Assembly: GCF_003854935.1 (NCBI RefSeq)
Contig: NZ_CP033971.1
Span: 62,001 to 126,000, forward strand
DNA from: Cupriavidus pauculus
GTDB taxonomy: Bacteria > Pseudomonadota > Gammaproteobacteria > Burkholderiales > Burkholderiaceae
Reading direction: 5' to 3'
Length of the DNA: 64,000 nucleotides
Shown: piece after piece, positions 2,179 through 20,115 of the stretch
How positions within the stretch are numbered: the stretch's first letter is position 1
Layout of the letters: every line of letters begins with the position of its first letter
Program-made: the position numbers and the translations under genes
Notes under the pieces: generated by a model
Seen by the model: the letters and a program-made list of their open reading frames with translations, nothing else
Told to the model about the DNA's origin: nothing
The model's database searches: none

Positions 2179-2208
2179 GCACTGATGTAGTGAGCGCTAC
2201 ATTAGTGC
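2179..2208. promoter_or_regulatory. Near-perfect 30-bp palindrome (candidate MarR operator) upstream of niaP
   Basis: The arms GCACTGATGTAG and CTACATTAGTGC flank a 6-base centre (TGAGCG); 11 of 12 arm positions are complementary. The block abuts the nicB stop codon and lies about 205 bases upstream of niaP. The 24-base left part recurs with one mismatch at 17812-17835 before a MarR gene, which suggests a shared repressor. Confidence 0.6.
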
Positions 2209-5072
2209 TTGGGCTGCTGCCTTATCCTGGCGACCGTCGCTTCCACGTCGTGCCATGCCGGCTGGCCCGGCGCGAAACGCTGGCGCAGGTAATGCAAGAG
2301 TTCGGTTACCTGGGCATCGTCGAAGCTGTCCGCGAACCCTGGCATGTAGCCAATGCCCGACTGCGGCGGCGTGTCGCTGCCGTGCAGCACCGCTTGGATC
2401 ACGTTGTCCGGGCGCACACTGTGTAGGTTGCTATTGAGCGCCAGCGATGGCTTCACGCCGAACTGCGGCACACCGGCATTGCCCTGGTGGCACACCGCGC
2501 AGGCGCTCTGGTAAAGACGGTCGGTCGCGCCCGATAGCCGGAGCGCCGCCGCATCGCTGCGCGCCTCAACGGTCGCCACGTCCGGAGCGTCGGGCGCCGG
2601 TGGCTGGAACGACGCTACATAGTGGGCAATCGCGCGCACATCGCTGGCAGGCAGTTCGCGCAAGCTCTCGACCACCGGTGCCATCGGCCCGGCCGCTGCG
2701 CCGTGGCGGGCGGCATAGCCAGTGCGCAGGTACTGGAATAGGTCGTCTTCCGTCCACGGCACTGGCGACTTCGACAGCGCGGTCAACGCCGGCGCTTCCC
2801 ACCCTTCGGCCTCGCCGCCGGTCAAGTACGCCTTGCCGCCTTTCTCGGCGCCCAGCGCGTTGCGTGGCGAATGGCATGCGCCGCAATGCCCCAGCCCCTC
2901 GGCCAGATATGCGCCGCGATTCCACAACGCAGACCGGCTGGCATCAGGCTCGTACGGCGCATTACGGTGGAACAGCGCATTCCAACCGGCCAGCGCGGGG
3001 CGGAGATTAAATGGGAACGCGAGTTGCGTCTCGGGCGGGCGCGACGCCACTGGCTCGGTCGACATCAGGTAGGCGTAGAGCGCCTGCATGTCGGAATCGC
3101 TCACCTTGGCAAACGCGGTGTACGGGAAGGCCGGATAGAGGCGCCGGCCATCCCGATGGATACCCTCGCGCATGGCGCGCTCAAACGCGGCGTACGACCA
3201 GTTGCCGATGCCGGTTTCGACATCGGGCGTGATGTTGGTGCTGTAGACCGTGCCGAACGGTGTTTCCAGTCCCAGTCCGCCGGCGTTGCGGGCACCGCCT
3301 GGGACGGTATGGCACACCGCGCAATCGCCGGCTGCGGCTACCAGCCGACCGCGTTCGATGGTGGCGGCCGAATAGAAGCCGGGGCCGGTGGGCGCCACGG
3401 GCGCGATGGGTGCCCGCCATGGCATCACGGTGGCACACAGGCCGGCCAGCGCCGTCAGCGGCGCCAGCACGGCAACCAGCCAGCGGCGCTTGCCTGCTCG
3501 CTGGCGCGCTGTCTCATCGGACGCGGCGGATGCCGTGGCCAATGCTTCGCGAATCTGGCCGGCACTGAATGGCGGCTCGCGCAGACGAATGCCCGTTGCG
3601 TCATGGATCGCATTGGCGACGGCGGCAGCGGCCGGCAGCGTCGCCGCCGCACTGCCGGCCAAAGAGCCAACGACGTCGACCTGTGTCGGCGCTGCCATGG
3701 CGACACCGGTTGCGTGCGTGGCCAGCGCAAACGCCGATTCCGCTGTCGCGTCGTCGCCCCAAGCATCGTATGCGCTGCCGCCAGCGGTGAGCTGCCGCGC
3801 GGCGACGGTTACGTCGTCCTTGAGCGATGTGGGCCGTGCCGGCGCATCGCTGCGGGTGACTTCGCGCTCGTGGCCGACCGTCACGCGTGTGACGCTGACG
3901 TCGCCTGTGCGGCTGTCGACTTCGACGTCCGCCACCCAGGCCGACCACGTGCGGGCGGGGCGTCCATCCTCGACGTCGACGACGCTGGCGTAGGCAAAGC
4001 CACGTCCGTGTCGAACCCCTTCGTCCGTCCTTGCGCGGCCGTGCAGCGGTCCGCGCCAACCGGACTGGGCGGCGACGCGTTTGATCAGTTCCGTGCCGGT
4101 GCAGTCTTCCAGCGAGCGGAGCCGCAAAGCCAACGGATCGAGATCGGCGCGCACGGCGAGTTCGTCCCAGTGGGATTCGTGGGCGAATACCTGGCCTCGC
4201 GCGGCGATGTCCGAAGGCACATCCATGGGCAGGGTGGCCGTGACGTCCAGGTGCTCCACCGCATACGGCGGCACCAGGCTCGGATCGACCGCAACGTCGT
4301 CGGCCGCCGGCGATGCCGTTCCGATTTGCGCCAGGGCAATGGGCTGGCTAGCATGCGCTGGCGCGCTTGCGGCGATGCGATAGGCCGACTCCGGGGCCAG
4401 CGCGCCGCTGACTACCAGCGTCACGTGCGCCGACGCGCCGGTCAGGTCTGCCGCGTGGCATTCCGCCTGCACTGGCCGGCCTACTACCTGGGTCATCAGC
4501 GCCGCATCGGCTGCCGCCTGGGCCGCGCAATAGTTGTCATGGCGCGCCGTCGGGTCGGGATCGCAAACGATCAGGACCCGGCTCTCGGGGACGTCCAGCA
4601 ACGCCGCCAGCGACGTCCGCAGCGCGGCTGGCTGCGTGCAAGCCAGCCACACATGCAACGTTCCGTGGCGCCATTCGGCTGTTGCCGTGCCGCAGGCGTC
4701 GATGCGCGGACTCATCAGCGGCCAGCGGTAGCTCGCGTCGACACGCTGCGCGCTCTGCGCCAGTGCCGTTGCCGCATCGCCACGGGAGGCGATGCGCACC
4801 GTCCGGGTGTGCATGGGCTGGGCGGGGGGCGTGTCGGCCCGCCAGACAGGCTGTAAGGCCGCCGCCGCGGCCCTGGCCTGGTGGCGCGTGTCTGCCACGA
4901 CCGCCAGGAAGTTGCCACGCGCGACAATGTCGACCACGCCGGCGCAGCGGCGCGCCAGATCGGCGTCGAAGCGCTGAAGGCGGGCGGCCCCGCCGGCCGG
5001 ACGCGCCACGTAGCCATGCAGCACCGCAGCCGGCACCGCCAGTCGAACCGTGTCGTGCGTGCGCGCGTTCAT
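2202..5072 (-). CDS. nicB: Nicotinate hydroxylase large subunit with three-haem cytochrome c domain
   Basis: 956-residue subunit combining a molybdopterin-oxidoreductase-like N-terminal half (about 1-520), one membrane segment near 540-560, and a cytochrome c half with three CXXCH haem sites (Cys584, Cys730, Cys858). In the known pathway NicAB hydroxylates nicotinate to 6-hydroxynicotinate and passes electrons to the respiratory chain through the haems. The start at 5072 was chosen because it overlaps the nicA stop by four bases (ATGA). Odd points: the molybdenum half is short, lacks the N-terminal cofactor-binding segment found in the gene at 11239, and shows no glutamate where the family's catalytic GE motif should be. 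It may therefore mainly carry electrons, with the other protein as the catalytic subunit. Confidence 0.85.
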   Translation of the reverse strand: MNARTHDTVRLAVPAAVLHGYVARPAGGAARLQRFDADLARRCAGVVDIVARGNFLAVVADTRHQARAAAAALQPVWRADTPPAQPMHTRTVRIASRGDAATALAQSAQRVDASYRWPLMSPRIDACGTATAEWRHGTLHVWLACTQPAALRTSLAALLDVPESRVLIVCDPDPTARHDNYCAAQAAADAALMTQVVGRPVQAECHAADLTGASAHVTLVVSGALAPESAYRIAASAPAHASQPIALAQIGTASPAADDVAVDPSLVPPYAVEHLDVTATLPMDVPSDIAARGQVFAHESHWDELAVRADLDPLALRLRSLEDCTGTELIKRVAAQSGWRGPLHGRARTDEGVRHGRGFAYASVVDVEDGRPARTWSAWVADVEVDSRTGDVSVTRVTVGHEREVTRSDAPARPTSLKDDVTVAARQLTAGGSAYDAWGDDATAESAFALATHATGVAMAAPTQVDVVGSLAGSAAATLPAAAAVANAIHDATGIRLREPPFSAGQIREALATASAASDETARQRAGKRRWLVAVLAPLTALAGLCATVMPWRAPIAPVAPTGPGFYSAATIERGRLVAAAGDCAVCHTVPGGARNAGGLGLETPFGTVYSTNITPDVETGIGNWSYAAFERAMREGIHRDGRRLYPAFPYTAFAKVSDSDMQALYAYLMSTEPVASRPPETQLAFPFNLRPALAGWNALFHRNAPYEPDASRSALWNRGAYLAEGLGHCGACHSPRNALGAEKGGKAYLTGGEAEGWEAPALTALSKSPVPWTEDDLFQYLRTGYAARHGAAAGPMAPVVESLRELPASDVRAIAHYVASFQPPAPDAPDVATVEARSDAAALRLSGATDRLYQSACAVCHQGNAGVPQFGVKPSLALNSNLHSVRPDNVIQAVLHGSDTPPQSGIGYMPGFADSFDDAQVTELLHYLRQRFAPGQPAWHDVEATVARIRQQPKH

Positions 5073-5578
5073 CGGACTGCCTCGAACTCGCGTCGCGCGT
5101 CGGCTTCGCGCTGTAACGCTGCGGCGCGCCGCACTGCGCGAAGGATTTCCATGTGTGTGCCACAGCGGCACAGGTTGAACCGCAGCGCCTCGCGGATCTC
5201 GGCGTCGCTCGGGTCCGGGTTCACCGCCAGCAGCGCCTTCGTGCTCATGATCATTCCGTTGAGGCAGTAGCCGCACTGGGCCGCTTGCTCGTCGATGAAG
5301 CCCTGCTGAACCGAGTCCGGCTGCGCCCGGGTGCCGAGTCCTTCCAGCGTGGTCACGGCCCGCCCCACGGCCGCGCCGGCGGGCACAATGCACGACCGTG
5401 CCGCCACGCCATCGATCAGCACCGTGCAAGCCCCACACTGGCCCAGCCCGCATCCATACTTCGGACCGTTACAGGCGAGGTCATTGCGCAGAACATAGAG
5501 CAACGGCGTTTGCGGATCGACACAGACATCGTGCGACGTCCGGTTCACGCGCAGCATCAGGGGACGGGATGCGGTCAT
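5069..5578 (-). CDS. nicA: Nicotinate hydroxylase small [2Fe-2S] subunit
   Basis: 169-residue xanthine-dehydrogenase-family iron-sulfur subunit. The plant-ferredoxin cluster ligands are Cys43, Cys48, Cys51 and Cys63; the second cluster ligands are Cys102, Cys105, Cys137 and Cys139 (CGYC and CRCG motifs). It relays electrons from the molybdenum centre to the cytochrome domain of NicB. It sits 22 bases downstream of nicC and overlaps nicB by four bases, so nicC-nicA-nicB form one minus-strand operon with tight coupling of the subunits. Confidence 0.92.
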   Translation of the reverse strand: MTASRPLMLRVNRTSHDVCVDPQTPLLYVLRNDLACNGPKYGCGLGQCGACTVLIDGVAARSCIVPAGAAVGRAVTTLEGLGTRAQPDSVQQGFIDEQAAQCGYCLNGMIMSTKALLAVNPDPSDAEIREALRFNLCRCGTHMEILRAVRRAAALQREADARREFEAVR

Positions 5579-5600
5579 CGTTGGGCGCCCTGCGGGGGAG

Positions 5601-7090
<1,490 letters not shown>

Positions 7091-7843
7091 GTGCAGAAAG
7101 TTTTCCGGATCGGACAGATCGTTCCCAGTTCCAACACCACCATGGAGACCGAGATTCCGGCCATGCTGGCCGCGCGCCAACTGGTGCGCCCCGAGCGCTT
7201 CACGTTCCACTCGAGCCGCATGCGCATGAAGACGGTCAAGAAGGAAGAGCTGGCGGCCATGGATGCCGAGTCCGACCGCTGCGCGCTGGAACTGAGCGAC
7301 GCTCGCGTTGACGTGCTGGGTTACGCCTGCCTGGTCGCGATTATGTCGATGGGGCGCGGCTACCACCGCCAGTCCGAGACGCGCCTGAAAGCTCGCACCG
7401 AGGAAAATGGCGCCACGGCGCCGGTTGTGACAAGCGCGGGCGCGCTGGTCCATGCGCTCAAGGTGATCGGGGCGAAGCGCATCGCGCTGGTGGCGCCCTA
7501 TATGAAGCCGTTGACCGAACTGGTGGTCGACTACATCGAGCATGAGGGGTTTGAAGTGGTGGAGTGGCGCGCGCTCGAGATTCCGGACAACCTTGAAGTC
7601 GGCCGCCACGATCCGTCGCGGCTGCCCGGCATCGTCGCCACGATGAACACGCGCGATGTGGATGCAGTGGTGCTGTCGGCCTGCGTGCAAATGCCGTCGC
7701 TTCCGGTTGTGGAAAAGGTCGAGGCCATGACTGGAAAGCCGGTCATTACGGCGGCCATCGCCACGACCTACGCGCTGCTTAAGGAGCTGGACCTGGAGGC
7801 GGTGGTCCCCGGTGGCGGCGCGTTGCTGTCCGGTGCCTATTGA
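7091..7843 (+). CDS. nicE: Maleate cis-trans isomerase
   Basis: 250-residue member of the Asp/Glu racemase-like maleate isomerase family, catalysing the last step, maleate to fumarate. The signature PSSNTTMETEIPAM lies near the N-terminus and the two catalytic cysteines are seen as Cys80 (GYAC) and Cys198 (SACVQMPSL). Start is a GTG at 7091 with GGAG six bases upstream. It heads the plus-strand nicE-nicD-nicX-nicF operon; the next gene begins 13 bases after its stop. Confidence 0.92.
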   Translation: MQKVFRIGQIVPSSNTTMETEIPAMLAARQLVRPERFTFHSSRMRMKTVKKEELAAMDAESDRCALELSDARVDVLGYACLVAIMSMGRGYHRQSETRLKARTEENGATAPVVTSAGALVHALKVIGAKRIALVAPYMKPLTELVVDYIEHEGFEVVEWRALEIPDNLEVGRHDPSRLPGIVATMNTRDVDAVVLSACVQMPSLPVVEKVEAMTGKPVITAAIATTYALLKELDLEAVVPGGGALLSGAY

Positions 7844-7856
7844 ACGGAGGCGCACC

Positions 7857-8684
7857 ATGAGCATGTTCCTGTATGGCGGCAATGTGCACGCCAACGGCAT
7901 CCGCCAGCATTACCTGCGCTACGGCGGCAGCGGTGACGGCCGCGATGCGCGCGATGCCGTCATCATTGTGCCGGGCATCACGAGCCCGGCCATCACGTGG
8001 GGCTTCGTGGGCGCGCAGTTTGGCACCCGCTTCGATACCTACGTCCTCGACGTGCGCGGCAGAGGCCTGTCCTCCGCCGGGCCAGAACTGGACTACAGCC
8101 TCGATGCGCAGGCCGCCGACGTGATCGCGTTTGCCCAGGCGCTCGGGCTCAGCCGGTACCAGATCGTCGGGCATTCCATGGGCGGCCGCATCGGCATCCG
8201 CGCCGCGCGCTCCCGGCCCGCTGGGCTGACTCGGCTGGTGATGGTGGACCCGCCGGTCTCCGGCCCGGGCCGCCGGCCGTACCCGGCCCAACTGCCGTGG
8301 TATGTCGATTCAATCCGCCTGGCCATGCAGGGCATCGATGCCGAAGGCATGCGCCGCTTCTGCCCCACGTGGACTGAGGAGCAGCGCCAGCTACGTGCCG
8401 AATGGCTGCATACCTGCGACGAGCGCGCGATGCTGGCCAGTTTCGAGGGCTTTCATACCGACGACATCCACGCGGACCTGCCTCATGTGCAGGTGCCGAC
8501 GCTGCTGATCACGGCCGCGCGCGGGGACGTGGTGCTGCCGGGGGACGTCGAGGAACTGAAATCGCTGCGGCCGGGGCTGCTGGAAACCCGGGTGCCGGAC
8601 GCCGGCCACATGATCCCCTGGGATAACGAGCCCGGCTTCTACCAGGCTTTCGGTGACTTCCTCGGCGCGCCGCTCGCCGCTTGA
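7857..8684 (+). CDS. nicD: N-formylmaleamate deformylase
   Basis: 275-residue alpha/beta hydrolase that removes formate from N-formylmaleamate to give maleamate. The nucleophile elbow is GHSMGG (Ser107), with a likely acid Asp224 and the catalytic His251 in AGHMIPWD. I start at the ATG at 7857, behind ACGGAGG; a second in-frame ATG follows two codons later. Length agrees with NicD of Pseudomonas (about 270). It lies between nicE and nicX in one operon. Confidence 0.92.
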   Translation: MSMFLYGGNVHANGIRQHYLRYGGSGDGRDARDAVIIVPGITSPAITWGFVGAQFGTRFDTYVLDVRGRGLSSAGPELDYSLDAQAADVIAFAQALGLSRYQIVGHSMGGRIGIRAARSRPAGLTRLVMVDPPVSGPGRRPYPAQLPWYVDSIRLAMQGIDAEGMRRFCPTWTEEQRQLRAEWLHTCDERAMLASFEGFHTDDIHADLPHVQVPTLLITAARGDVVLPGDVEELKSLRPGLLETRVPDAGHMIPWDNEPGFYQAFGDFLGAPLAA

Positions 8685-8706
8685 GTCCAACTGCAAGGAG
8701 CCCATC

Positions 8707-9774
8707 ATGGCCGTCAGTGACTATGACCTGACCTGCGCGTGGAAGCAGGTCCTTATGCTGTCGAAACTGGAGCCGGGGCAGACCGTCACCGTGCTGACCG
8801 GGGCCGATACCCACCCGCAGACGCTGCGCACCGCGCTGGTGGCGGCGGCGTCGATGGGCGCCGTCGTCAACCGGCTTGACTTGCCGCCCGTCAACGGCGA
8901 AAAGGCGCTGAGCCGCGACGCGCTGGCCTATCTGGGCACCACGCCGCTCACCGGCAACCCCGCCGCCATCGCAGCGTTGAAGGCCAGTGACCTGGTGCTG
9001 GACCTGATGACCCTGCTGTTCTCGCCGGAGCAGCATGACATCCTGTCCACGGGCACCAGAATCCTGCTGGCCGTGGAGCCGCCCGAAGTGCTGGTCCGAC
9101 TGGTGCCCACGGAAGCCGACCGCGTGCGCGTCAAGGCCGCCACCGCCCGGCTGTCGGGAGCCCGGACCATGCACATCACTTCTGACGCGGGCACAGATCT
9201 ACGTTGCGACCTGGGCGAGTTCCCGGCCATCAGCGAGTACGGGTTTGTCGACGAGCCCGGCCGCTGGGACCACTGGCCCAGCGGCTTCGTGCTGACCTGG
9301 CCAAACGAGGGCGGCACTAACGGACACCTGGTGTTGGATCGCGGCGATATCCTGCTGCCAATGAAGTCCTATGTGCAGGAGCCGATCCACGTGACCGTGC
9401 AAAACGGCTACGTGACGAACATCGAGGGCGGGCTGGATGCCGAGCTGCTGGCCGACTATATGGCATCGTTTAACGACCCCGAGTCGTATGCGATGTCGCA
9501 CGTTGGCTGGGGCCTGCAACCGCGCGCCCGCTGGTCGACGCTGGCCATGTACGACCGCGAAGCCACCATCGGCATGGACGCACGAGCCTACGAAGGCAAC
9601 TTTCTGTGCTCGTTCGGCCCGAACAACGAAGCAGGCGGCAGCCGCACCACGGCCTGCCATATCGACATTCCGCTGCGCCGCTGCACAGTCAGGCTGGACG
9701 GCGAGCCCGTGGTGGCCGCCGGCAAGGTGCTGGACGGCGCAACCCATCCCAGCCAGGAGCCCGCTCATGCATGA
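8707..9774 (+). CDS. nicX: 2,5-dihydroxypyridine 5,6-dioxygenase
   Basis: 355-residue iron(II) extradiol-type ring-opening dioxygenase producing N-formylmaleamate. His265, His318 and Asp320 (the latter two in CHIDIP) fall at the positions reported for the iron ligands of Pseudomonas NicX, so the alignment is essentially colinear. The start at 8707 follows a GGAG sequence (AAGGAGCCCATC). Its last codons overlap the nicF start by eight bases, showing translational coupling. Confidence 0.93.
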   Translation: MAVSDYDLTCAWKQVLMLSKLEPGQTVTVLTGADTHPQTLRTALVAAASMGAVVNRLDLPPVNGEKALSRDALAYLGTTPLTGNPAAIAALKASDLVLDLMTLLFSPEQHDILSTGTRILLAVEPPEVLVRLVPTEADRVRVKAATARLSGARTMHITSDAGTDLRCDLGEFPAISEYGFVDEPGRWDHWPSGFVLTWPNEGGTNGHLVLDRGDILLPMKSYVQEPIHVTVQNGYVTNIEGGLDAELLADYMASFNDPESYAMSHVGWGLQPRARWSTLAMYDREATIGMDARAYEGNFLCSFGPNNEAGGSRTTACHIDIPLRRCTVRLDGEPVVAAGKVLDGATHPSQEPAHA

Positions 9775-10405
9775 AGAAGAACAGACGTACCGCCGCCAGG
9801 GTTTTGGCACGGCGATGGAACTAAAGGCCCCCTACGGCCTGCTGATCATCGATTTCGTCAATGGTTTTGCCGATCCGGCCGTGTTCGGCGGTGGCAACAT
9901 CCCCGAGGCCATCGCCGCCACGCAGCCGCTGCTGGCTACCGCTCGACGGATGGGCTGGCCCGTGGCGCACAGCCGGATCGTGTTTGCCGATGACGACGCT
10001 GACCACAACATCTTCACGTTGAAGGTGCCTGGCATGCTGACGCTGAAGGAGGACGGCGCGCCGAGCCAGATCGTGCCGCAGCTTGCGCCGGCGCCCGGCG
10101 AGTTGGTGGTGCGCAAGACCGTGCCGTCGGCGTTCTTCGGCACGTCGCTGGCCGCGTGGCTGGCGCAGCGCGGCGTGCAGACGCTGCTGGTGGCTGGTTG
10201 CGTGACCAGCGGCTGCGTGCGGGCCAGCGTGGTCGACGCGATGTCGTACGGCTTCCGTCCGCTGGTGCTGTCCGACTGCGTTGGCGACCGCGCCATCGGT
10301 CCGCACGACGCGAACCTCTTCGACATGTCGCAGAAGTACGCGATGGTGATGCCGCGCGATGCCGCGCTGTCGGCCATCGGCGCGGCGGAGGCCGTGGCGG
10401 CCTAG
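9767..10405 (+). CDS. nicF: Maleamate amidohydrolase
   Basis: 212-residue isochorismatase-like amidohydrolase converting maleamate to maleate and ammonia. The family's catalytic triad is visible as Asp29 (LLIIDF), Lys117 (VRKTVPSAF) and Cys150 (TSGCVRAS). It starts inside the 3' end of nicX. Its TAG stop shares the bases CTAG with the stop of the convergent TetR gene, so no space for a terminator exists between them. Confidence 0.92.
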   Translation: MHEEEQTYRRQGFGTAMELKAPYGLLIIDFVNGFADPAVFGGGNIPEAIAATQPLLATARRMGWPVAHSRIVFADDDADHNIFTLKVPGMLTLKEDGAPSQIVPQLAPAPGELVVRKTVPSAFFGTSLAAWLAQRGVQTLLVAGCVTSGCVRASVVDAMSYGFRPLVLSDCVGDRAIGPHDANLFDMSQKYAMVMPRDAALSAIGAAEAVAA

Positions 10406-11130
10406 GCCACCCGGCGGGGTCGGCCGCGCGGCCTGCGCGGCGCCCGCGTGGCTTCCACGGGCAGGATCTCGGCTCGATGGCACACGGCATTGAGTACGGT
10501 ACGCTGGATGACGTCGCGCCAGTGCGCGACGGCCTCCGCGCGCATGATCGGCTCGCCCAGGAAAGCGCTCAGCGTATGGTGGTTCGAGTTGTAGAAGTAG
10601 CCCAGCGACGCGATGATCAGGTACACGTCGCGCGCGGTCAGGCCCGCCTGGAACGTGCCGGCCGCGATGCCGCGCGCCAGGATGCCGTCGAGCACCGACA
10701 GCGCATAGCCCGAGATCTCGTTGAGCCGCTCGGACTTCCTGGCATGGCGCGCGCGGCTCAGGTTCTCGCTGTTGAGGATGGCGACGAACTCGGGATGGTC
10801 AAGGTAGTATCGCCAGACGAAGTCGATGAGCTGCGTCAGCGCGCGAACCGGGTCATCAGGGTCCAGCACGAGTTGCTGCTCGGCCTCGTTGAGCTGCAGG
10901 TAGATGGTCTCCAGCACTTCGATGAACAGTTTCTCCTTGCTGCCGAAGTAATAGTAGATCATCCGGTCGTACGTATTGGCCAGCGACGAGATACTCTCGA
11001 TGCGCCCGCCGTCGTAGCCGCGCTGCGCAAAGACCTTGATGGCGGCCTTGAGGATCTTGGCGCGGGTGTCTTGAGCCTGGCGGGCGCGGGTACCGGGGCG
11101 GGCGGGCGCGGTGTTCGTGTCTTTGGGCAT
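10402..11130 (-). CDS. TetR-family regulator, NicS-like by position
   Basis: 242-residue regulator with a TetR helix-turn-helix at about residues 15-60 (AAIKVFAQRGYDGG ... YYYFGSKEKLF) and a C-terminal ligand domain. The C-terminus ends in a short basic tail. I chose the ATG at 11130; an upstream ATG ten codons earlier is possible. It faces away from the second molybdenum-subunit gene, separated by 108 bases with a long inverted repeat, and its stop overlaps that of nicF. In Pseudomonas putida a TetR protein, NicS, controls nicAB; the same role is inferred here. Confidence 0.75.
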   Translation of the reverse strand: MPKDTNTAPARPGTRARQAQDTRAKILKAAIKVFAQRGYDGGRIESISSLANTYDRMIYYYFGSKEKLFIEVLETIYLQLNEAEQQLVLDPDDPVRALTQLIDFVWRYYLDHPEFVAILNSENLSRARHARKSERLNEISGYALSVLDGILARGIAAGTFQAGLTARDVYLIIASLGYFYNSNHHTLSAFLGEPIMRAEAVAHWRDVIQRTVLNAVCHRAEILPVEATRAPRRPRGRPRRVA

Positions 11131-11161
11131 GCGGGCCGTAGTCCGGAAGAATTCCAACAAG

Positions 11162-11187
11162 GCGCCGGCGGACCTGTACGCCGGCGC
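11162..11187. promoter_or_regulatory. Perfect 9-bp inverted repeat between tetR and the second Mo-subunit gene
   Basis: GCGCCGGCG at 11162-11170 and CGCCGGCGC at 11179-11187 are separated by 8 bases, in the divergent promoter region. It could be a TetR-type operator or a strong hairpin in the leader of the plus-strand gene. Confidence 0.4.
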
Positions 11188-11238
11188 GGTTGCCAGTATA
11201 GCCGCGCATCATGAGCGTGCGGCATGGAAGGACGAACG

Positions 11239-13428
11239 ATGTCAGAGACACCCCGCGCATTGCGTGAAACGTTGTTCCGAGAGGCCGGCGTGCTGCTGGT
11301 AACGCGGCCGGCGGCCGCGGCGCCGCGCCCGTCGTCGGGCCAGCCCGGCGCCGCCTCTGATTTCGTCTCCGACCTGCCTGACATCTTCATCGCGATCCGC
11401 GCCTCGGGCCAAATTCTGGCCTTCAACGGCCACGTCGACCTGGGCACCGGGATCCGCACGGCGCTGGCGCAGATCGTGGCCGAAGAACTCGACGTCGAAC
11501 CGGACACGGTCACCATGGTGCTGGGCCATACCGAAGCCACGCCTAATCAAGGGCCCACCATTGCCAGCGCGTCGATTCAGATTTCGTCGCTGCCGCTGCG
11601 CCGGGCGGCCGCACAGGCCCGCGCCTGGCTCGTCAAACGGGCCGACGGAGGCACGGTGGACTTGGCAGCGCTGCTCGGCGGCGAGCACATCGAACTGCCG
11701 CTGGCCGACGACGTGCCGACCAAGCCGGCCGACCAGTACCGCGTGGTGGGTCGCAGCGCGCCGCGCGTCGATATCCCGGCCAAGGCCACCGGCGAGCTGA
11801 CGTTCGTGCACGACGTGCGTTTGCCGGGCATGCTGCACGGTCGCGTCATCCGGCCGCCTTACGCCGGTCGCGACAGCGGCGACTTCGTCGGCACGAGCCT
11901 GATCGACGTCGACGAGGCGTCGGTGGCGTCGGTACCGGGGCTGGTGCGGGTCTACGCCGAGGGCGATTTCGTTGGGGTGGTGGCCGAGCGCGAGGAGCAG
12001 GCCATCGAGGCCGCGCGGCGGCTCAAGGTGCGATGGAAGCCGGTGCCACCGTTGCCGGATCTGAACGCGCCCGAAACGGCGCTGCGCGCGGCACCGGCAC
12101 GCCGCCGCGCGTTGCTGCAGACCGGCGAAGCCTCCGCGGCACTGGCCGCCAGCGCGCGTCGGCTGGAAAGGACCTATGTCTGGCCCTACCAGATGCACGG
12201 CTCAATCGGGCCGTCGTGCGCGGTGGCAGACTGGCGCGACGGCCGGCTGACGCTCTGGTCGGGGACACAGAATCCGCATGTACTCCGTATCGACATGGCG
12301 CGCCTGACGGGTCTGAACGAAGGCGCCATCGAGGTAGTGCGGATGGAGGCCGCCGGCTGCTATGGCCGCAACTGCGCTGACGACGTCTCTGCCGACGCGG
12401 TGCTGCTGTCGCGCGCCGTGGGCTGCCCAGTACGCGTGCAGCTCAGCCGCGAACAGGAGCATCTCTGGGAGCCCAAGGGCGCGGCGCAGTTGATGGACGT
12501 GCGCGGCGGTGCGGAAGCCGACGGCGCGCTGACCGCCTACGAGTTCCTGACGCGCTATCCGTCGAATGACGCGCCGGTGCTGGCGTTGCTGCTGACCGGG
12601 CGGGTGCCGTCATCGCCGCGGATGCTGGAGATGGGCGACCGTACCTCCGTGCCCCCCTACGCTTATCGCGCGATGGACATCGCCTGTGACGACACGCCTG
12701 CTATTGCGCGCGCATCCTGGCTGCGCGGCGTGTCCGCGCTACCCAATACCTTCGCGCACGAGTCCTTCATCGATGAACTGGCGCACCAGTGCGGCGCCGA
12801 TCCGCTGGCGTTCCGCCTGCGGCATCTGCCCGACACCCGCGCCTGCGAACTGCTGGTGGCACTGGCGCAGGCCGCCGGGTGGCACGAGGGCATACGCGGA
12901 TCACGCGGACAGCCTGGGGCGGACGGCCTGCTGCGCGGGCGCGGCATTGCCTATGCCCGCTATATCCACAGCAAGTTCCCTGGCTTCGGCGCCGCCTGGG
13001 CGGCCTGGATCGTTGACGTGGAGGTGGACCCCGCCACCGGCAACGTAGGCGTGACGCGGCTGCATGTGGGGCAGGACACCGGCATGATGGTGAACCCGGA
13101 CGGCGTGCGCCACCAGATTCATGGCAACGTGGTGCAGAGCCTGAGCCGCGTGCTGCGCGAGCAGGTGCGGTTCGATACCCAGGGCGTAGCCAGCCGCGAG
13201 TGGGGCAGCTATCCCATCGCTGGCTTCACCGATCTGCCCGACATCGACGTTCTGCTGATGCCCCGCCAGGGGGAGAGTCCCCTAGGCGCTGGGGAATCTG
13301 CATCGCTGCCCGGTGCGCCGGCAATTGCCAACGCGCTGTTCGATGCCACCGGCGTCCGCCTGACGCGGGCGCCCTTCACACCGGAGGTGCTCCGGCAAGC
13401 GTGTTCCAGCCCCTTTGCAGCCGTGTAA
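11239..13428 (+). CDS. Molybdenum hydroxylase large subunit (second nicotinate hydroxylase subunit)
   Basis: 729-residue xanthine-oxidase-family catalytic subunit without cytochrome domains. The order is an N-terminal molybdopterin-binding segment (about 35-130, VDLGTGIRTALAQI), the a/b hammerhead (about 170-260, PGMLHGRVIRPP), then the rest of the cofactor-binding region. The catalytic glutamate is Glu686 in GAGES. The arrangement resembles the IorB/NicB type. The ATG at 11239 with GGAAGGA upstream is preferred over 11224. No iron-sulfur subunit is adjacent; NicA at 5069 is the obvious partner. Because NicB appears to lack its glutamate, this may be the true catalytic subunit. A related dehydrogenase acting on a different N-heterocycle is the alternative. 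Confidence 0.82.
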   Translation: MSETPRALRETLFREAGVLLVTRPAAAAPRPSSGQPGAASDFVSDLPDIFIAIRASGQILAFNGHVDLGTGIRTALAQIVAEELDVEPDTVTMVLGHTEATPNQGPTIASASIQISSLPLRRAAAQARAWLVKRADGGTVDLAALLGGEHIELPLADDVPTKPADQYRVVGRSAPRVDIPAKATGELTFVHDVRLPGMLHGRVIRPPYAGRDSGDFVGTSLIDVDEASVASVPGLVRVYAEGDFVGVVAEREEQAIEAARRLKVRWKPVPPLPDLNAPETALRAAPARRRALLQTGEASAALAASARRLERTYVWPYQMHGSIGPSCAVADWRDGRLTLWSGTQNPHVLRIDMARLTGLNEGAIEVVRMEAAGCYGRNCADDVSADAVLLSRAVGCPVRVQLSREQEHLWEPKGAAQLMDVRGGAEADGALTAYEFLTRYPSNDAPVLALLLTGRVPSSPRMLEMGDRTSVPPYAYRAMDIACDDTPAIARASWLRGVSALPNTFAHESFIDELAHQCGADPLAFRLRHLPDTRACELLVALAQAAGWHEGIRGSRGQPGADGLLRGRGIAYARYIHSKFPGFGAAWAAWIVDVEVDPATGNVGVTRLHVGQDTGMMVNPDGVRHQIHGNVVQSLSRVLREQVRFDTQGVASREWGSYPIAGFTDLPDIDVLLMPRQGESPLGAGESASLPGAPAIANALFDATGVRLTRAPFTPEVLRQACSSPFAAV

Positions 13429-14766: not shown

Positions 14767-14781
14767 TGACCCGGCGGGTCA
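14767..14781. terminator. Short hairpin overlapping the Bug-receptor stop codon
   Basis: TGACCCG and CGGGTCA form a perfect 7-bp stem around one base, with the stop codon of the minus-strand gene inside it. A C5T6C5 tract follows about 30 bases further. It is a weak candidate for an attenuating terminator between the receptor and the porin. Confidence 0.3.
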
Positions 14782-15771
14782 GTCGACCAGCAGGTTGATC
14801 TTTGTCGCGAACTTCTGCCAGCGATCGATATCACTGGTCACCAGCTTCTGGAACTCGGCCGGGGTGCTGGTCGTGGTGGCAAAGCCAAGCTGCGCCAGCG
14901 TGGCCTTGGTCTCGGGCCGGGCCACCGCCTTCGCGATCTCGGCATTAAGCTTCTGCACGATGTCGGGCGGGGTATGGGCAGGCGCCAGAATGCCGAACCA
15001 TTGGTCAACGTCGTAGCCCGGCAGGCCCAGTTCGCTGACGGTTGGTACGTCGGGCAGGAACGGCGAGCGGGTCTTGGACGTAACGGCCAAAGCGCGCAGC
15101 TTGTTGCTCTTTAGATAGGGCACCGTGTTGGTCAGGGTGTTGACGCTGACGTCGGCCTGACCGCCCAGCACATCGGCAATGGCCGGCGCGCAACCCTTGT
15201 AGGGCACATGCAGCATTTCCATTCTAGCGGAGACCTTCAGCAGTTCGCCGGCCAGATGCTGCGGCGTGCCATTGCCGCACGAGGCGTAGCTGGGCGGCGT
15301 GCCGCTCTTGCCGGCGGCGAGCAGGTCGTTGAACGTGCGCAGCTTCGACTGGTACGGCACCGCGATCACCGAAGGCACCGAGGCAAAGGTGATGACGGCG
15401 CTGAAGTCGCCCTTGGGGTCGAACTGTAGCTTCTTGAAGACGCTCGGGTTGATCGCAAAGCTGCTGTTGACGATCAGTAGCGTGTAGCCGTCCGCCGGGC
15501 TTTTGGCCACGAACTCCGCGCCGATATTGCCGCTCGCGCCGGGGCGGTTGTCGACCACCACGGGCTGGCCCAGCGACTTGCTCAAGTCGGCGCCAATCAG
15601 CCGCGCAAGCGCGTCGGTGCCGCCGCCAGCCGGAAACGTCACGACCACGCGTATCGGTTTCTGGGGAAACGCGCTCGCAATGTTGGCCTGCGCACGACCG
15701 GGCAGGGTGCCAAGCGTACCAGCCACGAACAGCAGCGATGCCAGACTGCTGACGACGGATAGGGGTCTCAT
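14779..15771 (-). CDS. Bug-type (TctC family) periplasmic substrate-binding protein
   Basis: 330-residue tripartite-tricarboxylate-type receptor with a signal peptide of about 32 residues (cleavage near GRAQA). It carries the typical start of the mature domain, FPQKPIRVVVTFPAGGGTDALAR, and VVDNRPGASGNIGAE. No TctA/TctB membrane genes are next to it, as is usual for orphan Bug proteins of Burkholderiales. It follows the PhnN-phosphorylase fusion by 43 bases on the same strand and is likely co-transcribed. The ligand is unknown; a pyridine carboxylate such as nicotinate or quinolinate would fit the context. Confidence 0.9.
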   Translation of the reverse strand: MRPLSVVSSLASLLFVAGTLGTLPGRAQANIASAFPQKPIRVVVTFPAGGGTDALARLIGADLSKSLGQPVVVDNRPGASGNIGAEFVAKSPADGYTLLIVNSSFAINPSVFKKLQFDPKGDFSAVITFASVPSVIAVPYQSKLRTFNDLLAAGKSGTPPSYASCGNGTPQHLAGELLKVSARMEMLHVPYKGCAPAIADVLGGQADVSVNTLTNTVPYLKSNKLRALAVTSKTRSPFLPDVPTVSELGLPGYDVDQWFGILAPAHTPPDIVQKLNAEIAKAVARPETKATLAQLGFATTTSTPAEFQKLVTSDIDRWQKFATKINLLVD

Positions 15772-15814: not shown

Positions 15815-17608
15815 TCAATCGGGGTCGATGCGTATCGCGTCAGCGCCTTCGCCGCAGGCCAGCGCCACGGCGGCTGCCAGCGCCTCGGGAGACGCGGCGT
15901 GGATTCGGTACAGCGCCTGGTCCACTTCCACATGCGCGCCAATCGTGCACAGTAGGTCTAGGCCGGCACCGGCGTTGCGCGGTGCGCCTGCAGCGCGGGC
16001 CACGCCAGACACCTGCACGCCCTCGATGGAGGCCACGCGGCCGGCGCGTTCGGCGCGAATCTCGTGGACGAGGGCACTGGGCAGCACTGGCGCCGCATGG
16101 CGACCCTGTGCCGCGGCGATTTGATCGAAAGCGGCCTTCGCCTCGCCCGACGCAAGCAAGCGCGTCGCAATTTCCAGGCCCTGTTCGGCCGAACCGACGC
16201 GCGGGTCGAAGGCGATGATCTCGCCGGCAAAGCGCAGCGCCTTGGCGCGCAGGTCCGCTGGGGCCGCCGGGTTGTTGTCGAGGACCTGCATGACGTCGCG
16301 CACTTCCAGTGCGGGGCCGATGCCACGGCCGATGGGCCGGCTGCCGTCGGTGGCGATCGCGCGCACGTGCAGGCCAAGCCCCTTGCCAACCTGCTCGAAG
16401 AGGGCGCCCAGCGCCTCGGCGTCGGCGCGGCTAGCCATCTTGGTCTGCGGCCCGTAGGGCAGGTCGACCATGACGTGGGTGGCCCCGGCGGTGTACTTCT
16501 TCGACAAGATCGATGCCACCGACCAGCGCCGCGAGTCGAGCTGCAGCGGCCGCGTGATCGCGTTCATCACGTCGTCGACGATGGAGTGATTAAGGCGGCC
16601 GTTCCAGGCGATGCAGGCGCGCGCCTGGGCCACGCAGCGGCGCACATCTGCCTGCGTCAGGTCCACGCGAGCGACGGTTTCCATCGCGTCCGCCGTGCCG
16701 GCCGCCGAGGTGATGGCGCGCGACGACGTCTTGGGCATCGCCAGTCCGTACGCCGCGACGATGGGCACGAGGATCAGCGTGATGCGGCTGCCGGGGACGC
16801 CGCCCAGCGAGTGCTTGTCCACCACCAGCGGCTCGTCCCAATCGATGCGCGGCGTAAAGGCTGTGCGCGCGCGGGCCAGTGCCACCACCTCGGCGTCGCT
16901 CAGGCTGGCCGTGGCGCCGATCAAGAACTGGGTCAACTCGGCTTCGGTGTAGCGGCCAGCGATGGCGTCGCGCAACACGGCCACATAGGCGGCCTCGTCC
17001 AGCGCATCGCCACGAATCTTCGCGCGTAGGTTGAGGTGGCTGACTGGCGGAGTACCACTGGGCGCGCCTTGCCGCAGCGCTTCGACAAAGCGAGCCACGC
17101 CCACTTCGAGTGTGCTGTCGTTCGATACAGTGATGCAGCGCACGCCATCCGGCAGCGGCATCGCCTGGCGTGCGACCCGCCGCGCCACCGCTTCGCCCGA
17201 TTCGCGGCCACGCGCCGCGATGCGCTGGGCCAGCACGTCATGTGGAGCGGTCACCATCACCACGGTAAAGCGGGGCAGCCGGGCCGCAAGCTCCGCCACC
17301 ACGCTGCGCGAGCCGTTGGCAATGACGTGCACACCGGTGGCCAGCGTGTCCAAAAGCGCGGTGGGCAGGCCATAACGCAAGTCGTGAGCGTCCCACGTGA
17401 CCAGGAACTCGCCAGCCTCCTGGCGATGCGCAAACTCCAGGTCGGATACGCTTTCGTGATCCTCTCCCGGAGAACCGGTCGGCCGCGTGATCACCCGCCG
17501 CGCGAACCGGTAGCCGCTGGTGAGAATCGCGCGTGCACCATCGATCAGGGAGTCCTTGCCCGCGCCGCTGGGGCCTACCACAAGAAAAAATGTGCCGGTC
17601 TCTTTCAT
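15815..17608 (-). CDS. Fusion of PhnN (ribose 1,5-bisphosphokinase) with a thymidine/AMP phosphorylase-like domain
   Basis: 597-residue single open frame. Residues 1-185 match PhnN: Walker A GPSGAGKD at 12-19, then [14 protein letters not shown]. Residues from about 190 match the long thymidine phosphorylase family related to archaeal AMP phosphorylase: [44 protein letters not shown] and [15 protein letters not shown]. The separate N-terminal domain of AMP phosphorylase is missing, its place being taken by PhnN. AMP phosphorylase releases ribose 1,5-bisphosphate, which PhnN converts to PRPP, so the fusion could turn a nucleoside monophosphate into base plus PRPP. That pathway is inference. 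It is divergent from a MarR gene and shares promoter boxes with nadC. Confidence 0.85.
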
Positions 17609-17610
17609 GA

Positions 17611-17690
17611 TTAACTTAGACGTCGAAGTTGTAGGCTTATGCTAGCACCGGCCGAAACGCTGTCAAGAAAAGTTCGATGTCTAAGTTAAT
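17611..17690. promoter_or_regulatory. Paired inverted boxes upstream of the PhnN-phosphorylase fusion
   Basis: Box 1 at 17611-17630 contains TTAACTTAGACGTCGAA and box 2 at 17671-17690 contains TTCGATGTCTAAGTTAA on the same strand, i.e. an inverted copy with one difference over 17 bases. Box 1 begins two bases upstream of the start codon. The same pair occurs before nadC (19438-19509). Confidence 0.65.
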
Positions 17691-17835: not shown

Positions 17836-17916
17836 CGATGTCAAGCGGGAGCGCGCGGCGATGTCATGCCGGAGGCGCTATCATGTGCGCTGCCTTTGTC
17901 ATTACCCGCTTACGCC

Positions 17917-18462
17917 ATGGCCACAAGAAAGCCGGATAGTCCTGTCTCCATCACGCCTTCCGACGAGATCGAGGAAGAACGCCTTGCCCATCTGGTTAAG
18001 GACGCGGCCCGAGCGTATATCCGCGCGCTGCAGTTGCGCCTGGCCGAGCATTCGGTGTCGTATGGCCACTGGACCATCCTGCGGATCCTGTGGCGACACG
18101 ACGGCCTGTCGCAACGCGAGCTCAGCGAACGCGCCGGCGTGACGGAGCCCACCACGTTCGCTGCCGTCAAGGCGCTCGAAGCGCTCGGCTATGTCGAGCG
18201 CACGCACCTGCCGGGCAACAAGAAGAAGGTGCACGTGTTCCTGAGCAAGACAGGGCGAGCCCTGCGGCGCAAGCTGGAGCCGCTGGCGACCGAGGTCAAT
18301 ACATTGAGCGTGGAGGGGGTCAGCGAGGAGGATGTGCTGACCACGCGCCGCGTGCTGATAACGATCGCGCAGCGCCTGGTGGCCGACGAAATGGCGCTGG
18401 CCGAGCGGGGTCGGCGCGTGCCGTCCACGCAAGAAGTCGGACGTCTGCTGGCCGATCTCTAG
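17917..18462 (+). CDS. MarR-family transcriptional regulator
   Basis: 181-residue winged-helix regulator. The MarR DNA-binding core is at about 65-115: LSQRELSERAGVTEPTTFAAVKALEALGYVERTHLPGNKKK. The ATG at 17917 is preferred to one 17 codons upstream, because the upstream extension is not MarR-like. It is divergent from the PhnN-phosphorylase fusion and convergent with nadC. An operator-like dyad in front of it recurs before niaP, so it probably represses itself and the transporter. The ligand is probably a pyridine intermediate, by context only. Confidence 0.85.
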   Translation: MATRKPDSPVSITPSDEIEEERLAHLVKDAARAYIRALQLRLAEHSVSYGHWTILRILWRHDGLSQRELSERAGVTEPTTFAAVKALEALGYVERTHLPGNKKKVHVFLSKTGRALRRKLEPLATEVNTLSVEGVSEEDVLTTRRVLITIAQRLVADEMALAERGRRVPSTQEVGRLLADL

Positions 18463-18566: not shown

Positions 18567-19400
18567 TCAGGCTTCGTCGAGCCCGATGTCGACGGCCGGG
18601 GCCGACTGGGTGATCTTGCTCGTTGAGATGTAGTCGACGCCGGTTTCCGCCACGGCACGGATCGTTTCGAGCCGGATACCGCCGGACGCCTCGACCTTAG
18701 TCCGGCCGTTGACGATCTGCACTGCCTCTTTCATGTCGGGCACCGACATGTTGTCCAGCATGATGACGTCCACACCGGCCGCCAGGGCTTCGTGCACCTG
18801 TTCGAGCCGGTCGCACTCCACTTCCAGTTTGGTCAGCACAGGGAGCTTGCGGCGCACGCGCTCGACGGCGGCTGCAATGCTGCCGCACACCGCGATGTGG
18901 TTGTCCTTGATCATCACGCCGTTGTCCAGGCTCAGGCGGTGATTCAGCCCGCCGCCGCACGTGACGGCATGCTTTTCCAGCGCTCGCAAGCCCGGCGTGG
19001 TCTTGCGGCTGTCGATCAGGCGCGCCTTGGTGTGCGCGATGGCCTGAGCGTACGTGGCCGTGTGGTTGGCGATGCCGCAGAGCCGCTGCATGATGTTCAG
19101 CGCCGTGCGTTCGGCCGTCAGCACACTGCGGGCATTGCCACTCACGTTAAGCAGGATCGCACCTTTCTCGACCTTGTCGCCGTCCACCACGCGCACGTCG
19201 ATGGAAAGCGACGGATCGTAGCGCGCAAAGATCCGGGCGGCGACGTCGATGCCTGCAATGCGCATCGGCTCCCGCGCGTTCATGCAGAACGAGCCGGTCT
19301 CCCCGGGCTCGATCATGGTCTGGACCGTCAGGTCGCAGATGCCGATGTCCTCGGTCAGCCAAAGGTCGATCAGCTTGTCCGTGGCGAAAATGTCATACAT
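18567..19400 (-). CDS. nadC: Nicotinate-nucleotide pyrophosphorylase (carboxylating), NadC-like
   Basis: 277-residue quinolinate phosphoribosyltransferase, making nicotinate mononucleotide from quinolinate and PRPP. Family motifs are TEDIGICDLT near the N-terminus, RKTTPGLR at 132-139, HAVTCGGGLNHR at 144-155, IKDNH at 164-168, and the C-terminal EASGGI. The usual GD of the first motif is CD here. The ATG at 19400 is the first that fits the family N-terminus. The paired boxes in its promoter also precede the PhnN-phosphorylase fusion, linking it to PRPP supply. It may be a pathway-specific paralogue of a housekeeping NadC, which cannot be checked from this window. Confidence 0.88.
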   Translation of the reverse strand: MYDIFATDKLIDLWLTEDIGICDLTVQTMIEPGETGSFCMNAREPMRIAGIDVAARIFARYDPSLSIDVRVVDGDKVEKGAILLNVSGNARSVLTAERTALNIMQRLCGIANHTATYAQAIAHTKARLIDSRKTTPGLRALEKHAVTCGGGLNHRLSLDNGVMIKDNHIAVCGSIAAAVERVRRKLPVLTKLEVECDRLEQVHEALAAGVDVIMLDNMSVPDMKEAVQIVNGRTKVEASGGIRLETIRAVAETGVDYISTSKITQSAPAVDIGLDEA

Positions 19401-19437
19401 GGGTGGGCTCCTTAGCGGGGTTGTCGCACATCGAAAT

Positions 19438-19509
19438 CTTAGACATCGAAGTACATGACGTAATACTAGCGCCTGGCGCGGCCATGTCAATAATAATTCG
19501 ATCTCTAAG
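19438..19509. promoter_or_regulatory. Paired inverted boxes upstream of nadC
   Basis: Box 1 (19438-19452) is CTTAGACATCGAAGT and box 2 (19497-19509) is TTCGATCTCTAAG, an inverted copy with one difference over 13 bases. The gap between the TCGAA cores is 46 bases, against 45 before the PhnN-phosphorylase fusion. Confidence 0.65.
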
Positions 19510-19617
19510 ATAAATTGAAGCGGCGACGTCCGGAAGGATTCTCGGGGGCAGGGAGCAAAGGGAAGGGAAGGGCGACGGGCGGTCCGCGCGGCCCGTCGGG
19601 TGGCTGGTGGCTGGTGA

Positions 19618-20115
19618 TCAGGCCGGGCTGTCGGATTCGGCGGTGACGTCCGGCCGCAGGTCGTCTAGTTCGCTCATTTTGCGCAGCAGATAGAGCAGCG
19701 CCACGCGTTCAGCGGGGTTCAGGCCGCCCATGGTACGCTCGGTGATGTCCTGCGCAAACGGTACCACTTCGTCGATCAGAGCCTGTCCGGCAGGAGACAG
19801 CAGCACCACCACCTTGCGTCGGTCGCGCGCGTCGTGGGACACCACGATCAGCTCGCGGGACTTCAGGCGCTCGATAATGCCGCGCACGGTGGCCTGATCG
19901 ATGGCCGTGGCGCGGGCAATCTCGCTGAGGGAGCACGATCCTTGCTCCTGCACGGCACAAAGCACCACAAACTGACCGGCCGTGAGCTGGGAATCAGGAA
20001 TGGTCTGCTGGAAGATGGCGACGTGCCGTTGATAGGCCCGGCGCAGGAGGTGTCCCACCTGTTCCGTGAAATCGTAATGGTCGTTCACGCGCGGGTCGAA
20101 GCTTTGGCTGTTCAC
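19618..20115 (-). CDS. nicR: MarR-family repressor resembling NicR/BpsR
   Basis: 165-residue MarR protein with the N-terminal pattern DFTEQVGHLLRRAYQRHVAI. The winged helix (about 60-110) includes SLSEIARATAIDQATVRGII and the DARDRRKVVVLL wing. This N-terminal arrangement resembles NicR of Pseudomonas and BpsR of Bordetella, which sense 6-hydroxynicotinate. It lies alone on the minus strand, 217 bases beyond nadC. Assignment as the nicotinate repressor rests on family pattern plus context; the neighbouring MarR at 17917 is an alternative for the same role. Confidence 0.7.
   Translation of the reverse strand: MNSQSFDPRVNDHYDFTEQVGHLLRRAYQRHVAIFQQTIPDSQLTAGQFVVLCAVQEQGSCSLSEIARATAIDQATVRGIIERLKSRELIVVSHDARDRRKVVVLLSPAGQALIDEVVPFAQDITERTMGGLNPAERVALLYLLRKMSELDDLRPDVTAESDSPA

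Follow-up and report, generated by a model that had tools for sequence, protein, structure and literature searches.

Quinolinate is a product of tryptophan and a neurotoxin in animals. NadC combines it with PRPP to form NaMN, CO2 and PPi, and PhnN, a kinase of phosphonate metabolism, converts ribose 1,5-bisphosphate and ATP to PRPP and ADP. To our knowledge, no enzyme of the AMP/thymidine-phosphorylase family acts on NaMN.

Several described systems come close to the locus considered here. E. coli PhnN makes PRPP from ribose 1,5-bisphosphate, as stated in the accessible text of PMC9700705, and an archaeal AMP (NMP) phosphorylase from Thermococcus kodakarensis has been solved (PDB 4ga4-4ga6). 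According to the available parts of Sorci et al. 2024 (PMC11452294), Bug27 and Bug69 bind quinolinate in the submicromolar range, quinolinate is the preferred ligand of Bug27, and bug27 lies next to nadC and phnN in Variovorax and Jezberella, for which those authors suggest a part in NAD metabolism; in Bordetella, growth on quinolinate survived deletion of Bug69. The word 'phosphorylase' is absent from the main text of that article, in the parts of it at hand. Nicotinate is degraded by a nic (maleamate) type and by an enamidase type of pathway, and the accessible portions of their descriptions contain no feed from quinolinate through NaMN. The available text of PMC9304392 gives the reductive nicotinate pathway as known from Eubacterium barkeri and Azorhizobium and cites fungal work in which quinolinate degradation is tied to nicotinate genes.

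Here we report a PhnN-phosphorylase fusion protein and its gene neighbourhood in the window, the whole stretch of 64,000 nucleotides of Cupriavidus pauculus DNA that was analysed (Table 1). We consider it fairly probable that quinolinate is broken down through a PRPP cycle in which the fusion carries out the recycling half. The enzyme families concerned have been described before. The literature searched, which took in subscription papers in part, contains no account of the fused enzyme, of its probable NaMN phosphorylase activity or of a PRPP cycle of this kind. In that literature the pair of PhnN and thymidine phosphorylase domains was not found described, and no description of an NaMN/PRPP-cycle route was recognised under quinolinate catabolism.

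Table 1. Features of the window, with one gene family of other loci in the last row
Feature	Position	Strand	Basis or remark
NicB-like molybdopterin/cytochrome c subunit	2202..5453	-	Pfam domains; true start probably near or below 5081
NicA-like 2Fe-2S subunit (alignment extent)	5081..5575	-	60-64% identity to 2Fe-2S proteins of L088, L016; PF01799
NicC, 6-hydroxynicotinate 3-monooxygenase	5601..6926	-	5eow E 1.3e-162
NicE, maleate isomerase	7091..7843	+	4fq7 E 5.7e-114
NicD-like alpha/beta hydrolase	7812..8684	+	Pfam fold only; NicD name from cluster position
NicX, 2,5-dihydroxypyridine 5,6-dioxygenase	8707..9774	+	7cn3 E 2.9e-121
NicF-like amidohydrolase, isochorismatase fold	9767..10405	+	3ot4/3uao E 1.9e-98
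TetR-family regulator	10402..11160	-	PF00440, PF17938
Second molybdopterin hydroxylase large subunit	11224..13428	+	Domain scan
Bug/TctC periplasmic binding protein	14779..15771	-	Nearest solved structure Bug27; ORF from 15942, start near 15771 read from sequence
PhnN-phosphorylase fusion	15815..17608	-	597 aa; domain matches, structure comparison
AMP/thymidine-phosphorylase-like domain	15851..17050	-	Residues 187-586; family-specific base loop
PhnN (ribose 1,5-bisphosphate kinase) domain	17069..17596	-	Residues 5-180; TIGR02322
Operator-like palindrome AACTTAGACGTCGAAGTT	17613..17630	.	Fusion side; conserved in Cupriavidus
Second operator-like site	17670..17687	.	Fusion side; conserved in Cupriavidus
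MarR-family regulator, divergent, between fusion and nadC	17866..18462	+	Domain match
NadC paralogue (quinolinate phosphoribosyltransferase)	18567..19400	-	TIGR00078; ORF opens 19490, conserved start 19400
Operator-like site upstream of nadC	19436..19453	.	Conserved in Cupriavidus
Weaker fourth operator-like site	19494..19511	.	Read by eye; 58 bp from third
Second MarR-family regulator	19618..20115	-	Domain match
FRG-domain protein	L086:6972-7787; L020:9873-10715; L085:12528-13304; L014:4928-5722; also L015, L019		PF08867

Sequences compared

The 50 fetched fusion loci correspond to 40 distinct places, ten of them being the same genome taken twice; likewise, the 56 stand-alone phosphorylase loci reduce to 53 distinct places after three duplicates. 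The tree of 87 catalytic domains contained 35 fusion rows, 51 stand-alone rows and one archaeal row, 16 of the 51 fusion rows (Cupriavidus) having been omitted for thinning. An alignment position was called diagnostic when one residue reached at least 95% in 20 thinned fusions and another residue at least 90% in 51 stand-alone enzymes. A second nadC was searched for in the window genome (G000) and 12 further genomes, with G822 and G823 left out.

The fused protein

A single uninterrupted frame beginning with ATG joins both domains, as the earlier note had claimed, and the Walker A motif GPSGAGKD that it had pointed to is present in the PhnN half. The PhnN residues score 180 bits against TIGR02322 (cutoff 156), and the whole protein scores 589.6 bits against NF003338, the bacterial long phosphorylase subfamily (cutoff 434). 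The models for AMP phosphorylase (TIGR03327, 329 bits, cutoff 535) and thymidine phosphorylase DeoA (TIGR02643, 105.9 bits, cutoff 570.7) were matched below their cutoffs. The fusion has the catalytic fold of AMP phosphorylase, which is its nearest relative among solved structures in both sequence and fold, and its AlphaFold model has a pLDDT of 88.6. No guanylate-kinase-like or PhnN structure stood among the fold-search matches listed, which scarcely cover the PhnN part. Both the PhnN and the phosphorylase models were matched in 22 of 22 aligned fusion members.

The fusion is genuine and no artefact, because the same domain pair occurs at 50 loci, or 40 distinct places. A chance open reading frame was ruled out by the domain matches and by conservation. 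Compared with the archaeal AMP phosphorylase, whose catalytic fold it shares, the fusion is bacterial, linked to nadC and changed in its base loop, and the archaeal N-terminal domain is either lost or retained behind the PhnN kinase. With the PhnN of phosphonate metabolism it shares the TIGR02322 match and the Walker A motif, and it differs by its phosphorylase partner.

A further PhnN-like stretch lies elsewhere in the window genome (C2:16050-16613), with one TGA inside the aligned part and 40% identity to the PhnN half of the fusion over residues 7-188. In public records, longer fusions from Variovorax (L019:7998-10151) and Pacificitalea (L021:7956-10082) are named 'phnN' only, a name that hides the phosphorylase part in both plasmid annotations and that would need correction if our reading is true.

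Distribution and relatives

The fusion was found in 30 of 61 Cupriavidus genomes (L001, L090-L118). Outside that genus it occurs in Comamonadaceae MAGs (L014, L015), Bosea (L016), Variovorax (L019), Paraburkholderia (L020) and Pacificitalea (L021), and in five genomes of other genera (L085-L089). In the catalytic-domain tree the fusion rows form one clade across Pseudomonadota, with SH-aLRT support of 100.

The fusions vary in length. Those of 670-718 aa (L016, L019, L021, L086, L087, L089, L115-L118) carry an extra stretch between PhnN and the catalytic domain, which we take as the N-terminal domain of AMP phosphorylase, and the shorter ones of about 590-626 aa, that of the window included, are without it, probably through later loss. 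The earlier note, which had the fusion standing in place of this domain, is therefore right for some lineages only, whereas the longer fusions keep it.

Stand-alone phosphorylases of the NF003338 type (L017, L018, L022, L023, L028-L054, L060-L084) have an adjoining homologue of prs, the ribose-phosphate pyrophosphokinase gene, at 51 of 56 loci (48 of 53 distinct places). Such a homologue was near none of the 51 fusion loci, the window counted. The fusion thus departs from the sampled stand-alone members of NF003338 in base loop and prs neighbour, neither of which is a curated criterion.

The base loop

Asparagine 336, histidine 341 and asparagine 349 (N336, H341, N349) are present in 51 of 51 aligned fusion rows. 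At the same positions the stand-alone rows have G (51/51), L (49/51) and I (50/51), residues that the archaeal enzyme shares. The 415 positions of the catalytic domain include eight diagnostic ones, three of which are these residues, all within one 18-residue loop (hypergeometric p 0.003, for a loop picked after inspection). By hand count, R353, S366 and K370 align with R202, S217 and K221 of human thymidine phosphorylase, which we take to be base-binding residues, and they are invariant across 22 fusions. With these residues kept and the loop remodelled, the phosphorylase half has probably retained its sugar-phosphate chemistry and altered its base site. Tolerance of the base has a precedent, since an archaeal homologue takes AMP, CMP and UMP according to the accessible text of PMC9700705. 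AMP was set aside as the main substrate of the fusion on account of the partner genes and the altered base loop.

Binding protein and importers

The earlier note was silent on two features of the surroundings, a Bug27-like gene and a nic cluster. The product of the former matches Bug27 (2qpq) with an E value of 4.7e-107, the next structure standing at 1.7e-61, and quinolinate would on this likeness be the imported compound. An importer gene is near the module in nine of the 11 non-Cupriavidus loci, with types that vary by lineage: Bug in L014, L015 and L019 (49-52% identity), TAXI-TRAP in L021, L086 and L087, ABC in L020, and MFS in L085 and L088. Among the part of the flanking ORFs that was scanned, none was recognised in L016 and L089.

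Nicotinate-degradation genes

The nic cluster, at 2202-13428, neighbours the module. Its NicF-like product matches 3uao, which we take to be maleamate amidohydrolase. The cluster contains two different molybdopterin hydroxylase large subunits, the second of which may act on another substrate. Within the flank examined, L004-L006 have the molybdenum hydroxylase, TetR, nicF, nicX and nicD genes arranged as in the window.

Among Cupriavidus genomes, nicX is present in 30 of 30 with the fusion and in 14 of 31 without it (Fisher p 7e-7, with kinship ignored), and the two are no more than about 10 kb apart in just five of those 30. Across a sample of the order, 21 of 399 genomes have nicX. Many Cupriavidus genomes, for example G804, G807 and G782, carry the gene twice, one copy about 87% and the other about 78% identical to that of the window, which suggests two nicotinate clusters.

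Five of the 11 non-Cupriavidus loci have nicotinate-type genes in the examined flank (L015, L016, L086, L088, L089). That of L088 contains nicA/B/C-like genes, and that of L089 a NicB-like molybdenum/cytochrome protein; in L015 a NicB-like protein is represented by its cytochrome part alone. L086 has an enamidase (2vun, E 3.1e-109) and electron-transfer flavoprotein genes, and L016 encodes a protein 72.5% identical to that enamidase, which points to the reductive nicotinate pathway in both. For L085, L087 and L020, nicX lies elsewhere in the genome or plasmid (E <= 1e-20). No nicotinate-degradation genes were recognised for L014, L019 and L021, the plasmid alone having been searched for the last two. 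A search for nicX gave no match in G317, G749, G822, G823 and G824, and in four of these cases (L086, L089, L015, L016) the flank carries the other nicotinate-type genes described above. That a single module adjoins two distinct nicotinate pathways suggests nicotinate as their common link.

The linked NadC paralogue

The earlier note had also linked the fusion to nadC, and this link is general: a nadC paralogue adjoins the fusion at 49 of 50 loci, or 39 of 40 distinct places, with the window as one more. It was seen at 45 of 50 in the first fetch and at four of the other five after the flank was extended; the sole exception, L116, ends at a contig edge. As a control, nadC was near none of the 56 stand-alone phosphorylase loci (53 distinct; mean flank 4.5 kb). 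The window paralogue scores 312.5 bits against TIGR00078 (cutoff 198.4). In the NadC tree the linked rows form one clade, separate from ten unlinked rows. Distances among fusions and among linked NadC proteins are correlated over 16 loci (r = 0.887, reached in 0 of 2000 permutations, with kinship ignored), and shared species history alone could yield part of this correlation.

We take the quinolinate site of NadC to be R98, R132, K133, H154, R155 and K165 in the numbering of the 277-aa form. All six positions are kept in 24 of 24 linked rows. In the unlinked proteins five of the six are present in ten of ten rows and H154 is Q in eight of ten, so that H154 is either not universal in NadC or misaligned. 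The linked paralogue shares with the usual NadC its family, these site positions and probably its reaction, and it differs in forming a separate clade, in lying away from nadA and in its likely catabolic role.

In the window genome a second nadC, 39% identical, lies beside nadA (C2:1512449-1513225 and C2:1511373-1512293). Across 15 fusion genomes examined, nadA is present in nine, eight of which have a second nadC beside it, and the linked NadC is therefore dispensable there for de novo NAD synthesis. In G687, which has nadA, the linked nadC is the only one at E <= 1e-15 and may therefore have a part in NAD synthesis there too. The six genomes with no nadA match are G317, G749 and G758, which are 98-100% complete, and G822, G823 and G824, for which completeness is not given.

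These counts bear on an alternative that unites the view of the earlier note with that of Sorci et al., in which the fusion supplies PRPP for NAD salvage, making it from AMP or other nucleotides while the linked NadC turns scavenged quinolinate into NaMN. The same domains and the nadC linkage fit such a role, the six genomes without nadA might scavenge quinolinate, and Sorci et al. read bug27 beside nadC and phnN as NAD metabolism in the available text of PMC11452294. We think it unlikely all the same. Simple NAD salvage was set aside on the second nadC beside nadA in eight genomes and on the nicotinate catabolic genes of two pathways that recur near the fusion. Moreover, the base loop is unlike that of AMP phosphorylase, no adenine-salvage gene was noticed in a general scan of flanking ORFs, and making PRPP from AMP offers, by reasoning, no evident gain over Prs.

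Proposed PRPP cycle

The constant nadC, the usual importer and the nicotinate genes of two pathways suggest a closed cycle. Quinolinate would be captured outside the cell, in the window by the Bug27-like protein, and imported. The NadC paralogue would then use PRPP to form NaMN, releasing CO2 and PPi, the joining to PRPP loosening the 2-carboxylate. The phosphorylase half would split NaMN with Pi into nicotinate and ribose 1,5-bisphosphate, from which the PhnN half would remake PRPP with ATP, leaving ADP. In sum, quinolinate, ATP and Pi would give nicotinate, CO2, ADP and PPi, with PRPP acting catalytically, and the nicotinate would enter the degradation pathway that, in the window, adjoins the module. 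Placing the two recycling steps in one polypeptide would limit the loss of ribose 1,5-bisphosphate.

The charged pyridinium of NaMN makes glycosidic cleavage easy. NaMN, which the earlier note had listed among candidate substrates, is a candidate for the phosphorylase half, and the note's view that this half hands its product on to the kinase is likewise supported. Its broader picture of a general route from nucleotides to PRPP gives way to the closed cycle, to which the nadC partner, the importers and the nicotinate genes point instead; the PRPP used by NadC would be restored by the fusion as it breaks NaMN down, so that the module would yield nicotinate and no net PRPP. The purpose of the module would accordingly be catabolic. 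Against the cycle, cleavage of NaMN would compete with NAD synthesis. Also against it stand the three non-Cupriavidus loci for which no nicotinate-degradation genes were recognised (L019 and L021 on the plasmid alone), the five genomes with no nicX match, the small share of Cupriavidus genomes in which nicX is near the fusion, the possible NAD role of the linked nadC in G687 and the growth of Bordetella on quinolinate after loss of Bug69.

On balance we lean towards regarding PRPP as a recycled, coenzyme-like carrier, the phosphorylase half as an NaMN phosphorylase, and NadC, phosphorylase and kinase together as an ATP-driven quinolinate decarboxylase that joins at least two nicotinate pathways. 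Of these pathways, downstream genes of the nic type are present in the window and in L088, and the enamidase type is represented in L086 and by the close relative in L016. The Bug69/Bug27-nadC quinolinate salvage of Bordetella and relatives likewise pairs a quinolinate-type binding protein with nadC; in the accessible text of PMC11452294 it is read as NAD synthesis, whereas the module of the window has the phosphorylase and sits with nicotinate degradation. If true, the proposed cycle would explain how some bacteria feed quinolinate into nicotinate degradation, and it would give a catabolic use to an enzyme of NAD synthesis, a kinase of the phosphonate pathway and a phosphorylase of archaeal type as well as a catabolic role to nadC-linked Bug27-type binding proteins.

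The same cycle might instead serve another pyridine or aromatic N-heterocyclic acid, with NadC and the importers handling a quinolinate analogue whose base the phosphorylase frees. The variety of importer types and the separate clade of the linked NadC would suit such a substrate. The six site positions kept in every linked row argue for quinolinate itself, as do the flanking pathways, which pass through nicotinate or 6-hydroxynicotinate, and the preference of Bug27 in the available text of PMC11452294; we consider an analogue quite unlikely.

Operator-like sites and regulators

The earlier note described promoter boxes shared by the fusion and nadC. Sites exist upstream of both genes, but they are 18-bp near-palindromes that look like MarR-type operators. 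The near-palindrome occurs at three places (the first three sites of Table 1), with four strand hits against 0.01 expected, and with the fourth site there are two pairs at a spacing of about 58 bp, one upstream of the fusion and one upstream of nadC. With up to five mismatches allowed, ten of ten Cupriavidus loci (L004-L013) have the fusion-side pair complete together with one or more sites on the nadC side, and in seven of the ten the nadC-side pair is complete as well. The same loci carry a MarR gene in the interval separating the fusion from nadC, and the divergent MarR protein of the window would be the regulator acting at the predicted operators. Paired sites were not found in the 11 other loci scanned, of which L019 has a single candidate just before nadC.

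Operator-like sites suggest induction, which would also suit a role in pyridine-nucleotide salvage or disposal, in which NMN or surplus NaMN would be broken down by the phosphorylase half, NAD limited and PRPP returned, with no catabolism of quinolinate. Either nucleotide would be a natural substrate next to NadC. Such a role leaves the importers unexplained, and equally the close association with an enzyme that uses quinolinate and would produce the very nucleotide destroyed, and we hold it to be very improbable. The protein might also be a plain thymidine phosphorylase to which PhnN became fused incidentally, and the NCBI subfamily NF003338 does bear the name thymidine phosphorylase. This reading is hardly credible and was set aside on the missed DeoA-type cutoffs and the closer sequence and fold of AMP phosphorylase among solved structures, with the conserved nadC linkage also against it.

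The module has one further recurrent neighbour. An FRG-domain protein (about 54-61% identity) was not found in L004-L006 and gave only a weak match in L087; it adjoins the module in six non-Cupriavidus loci.
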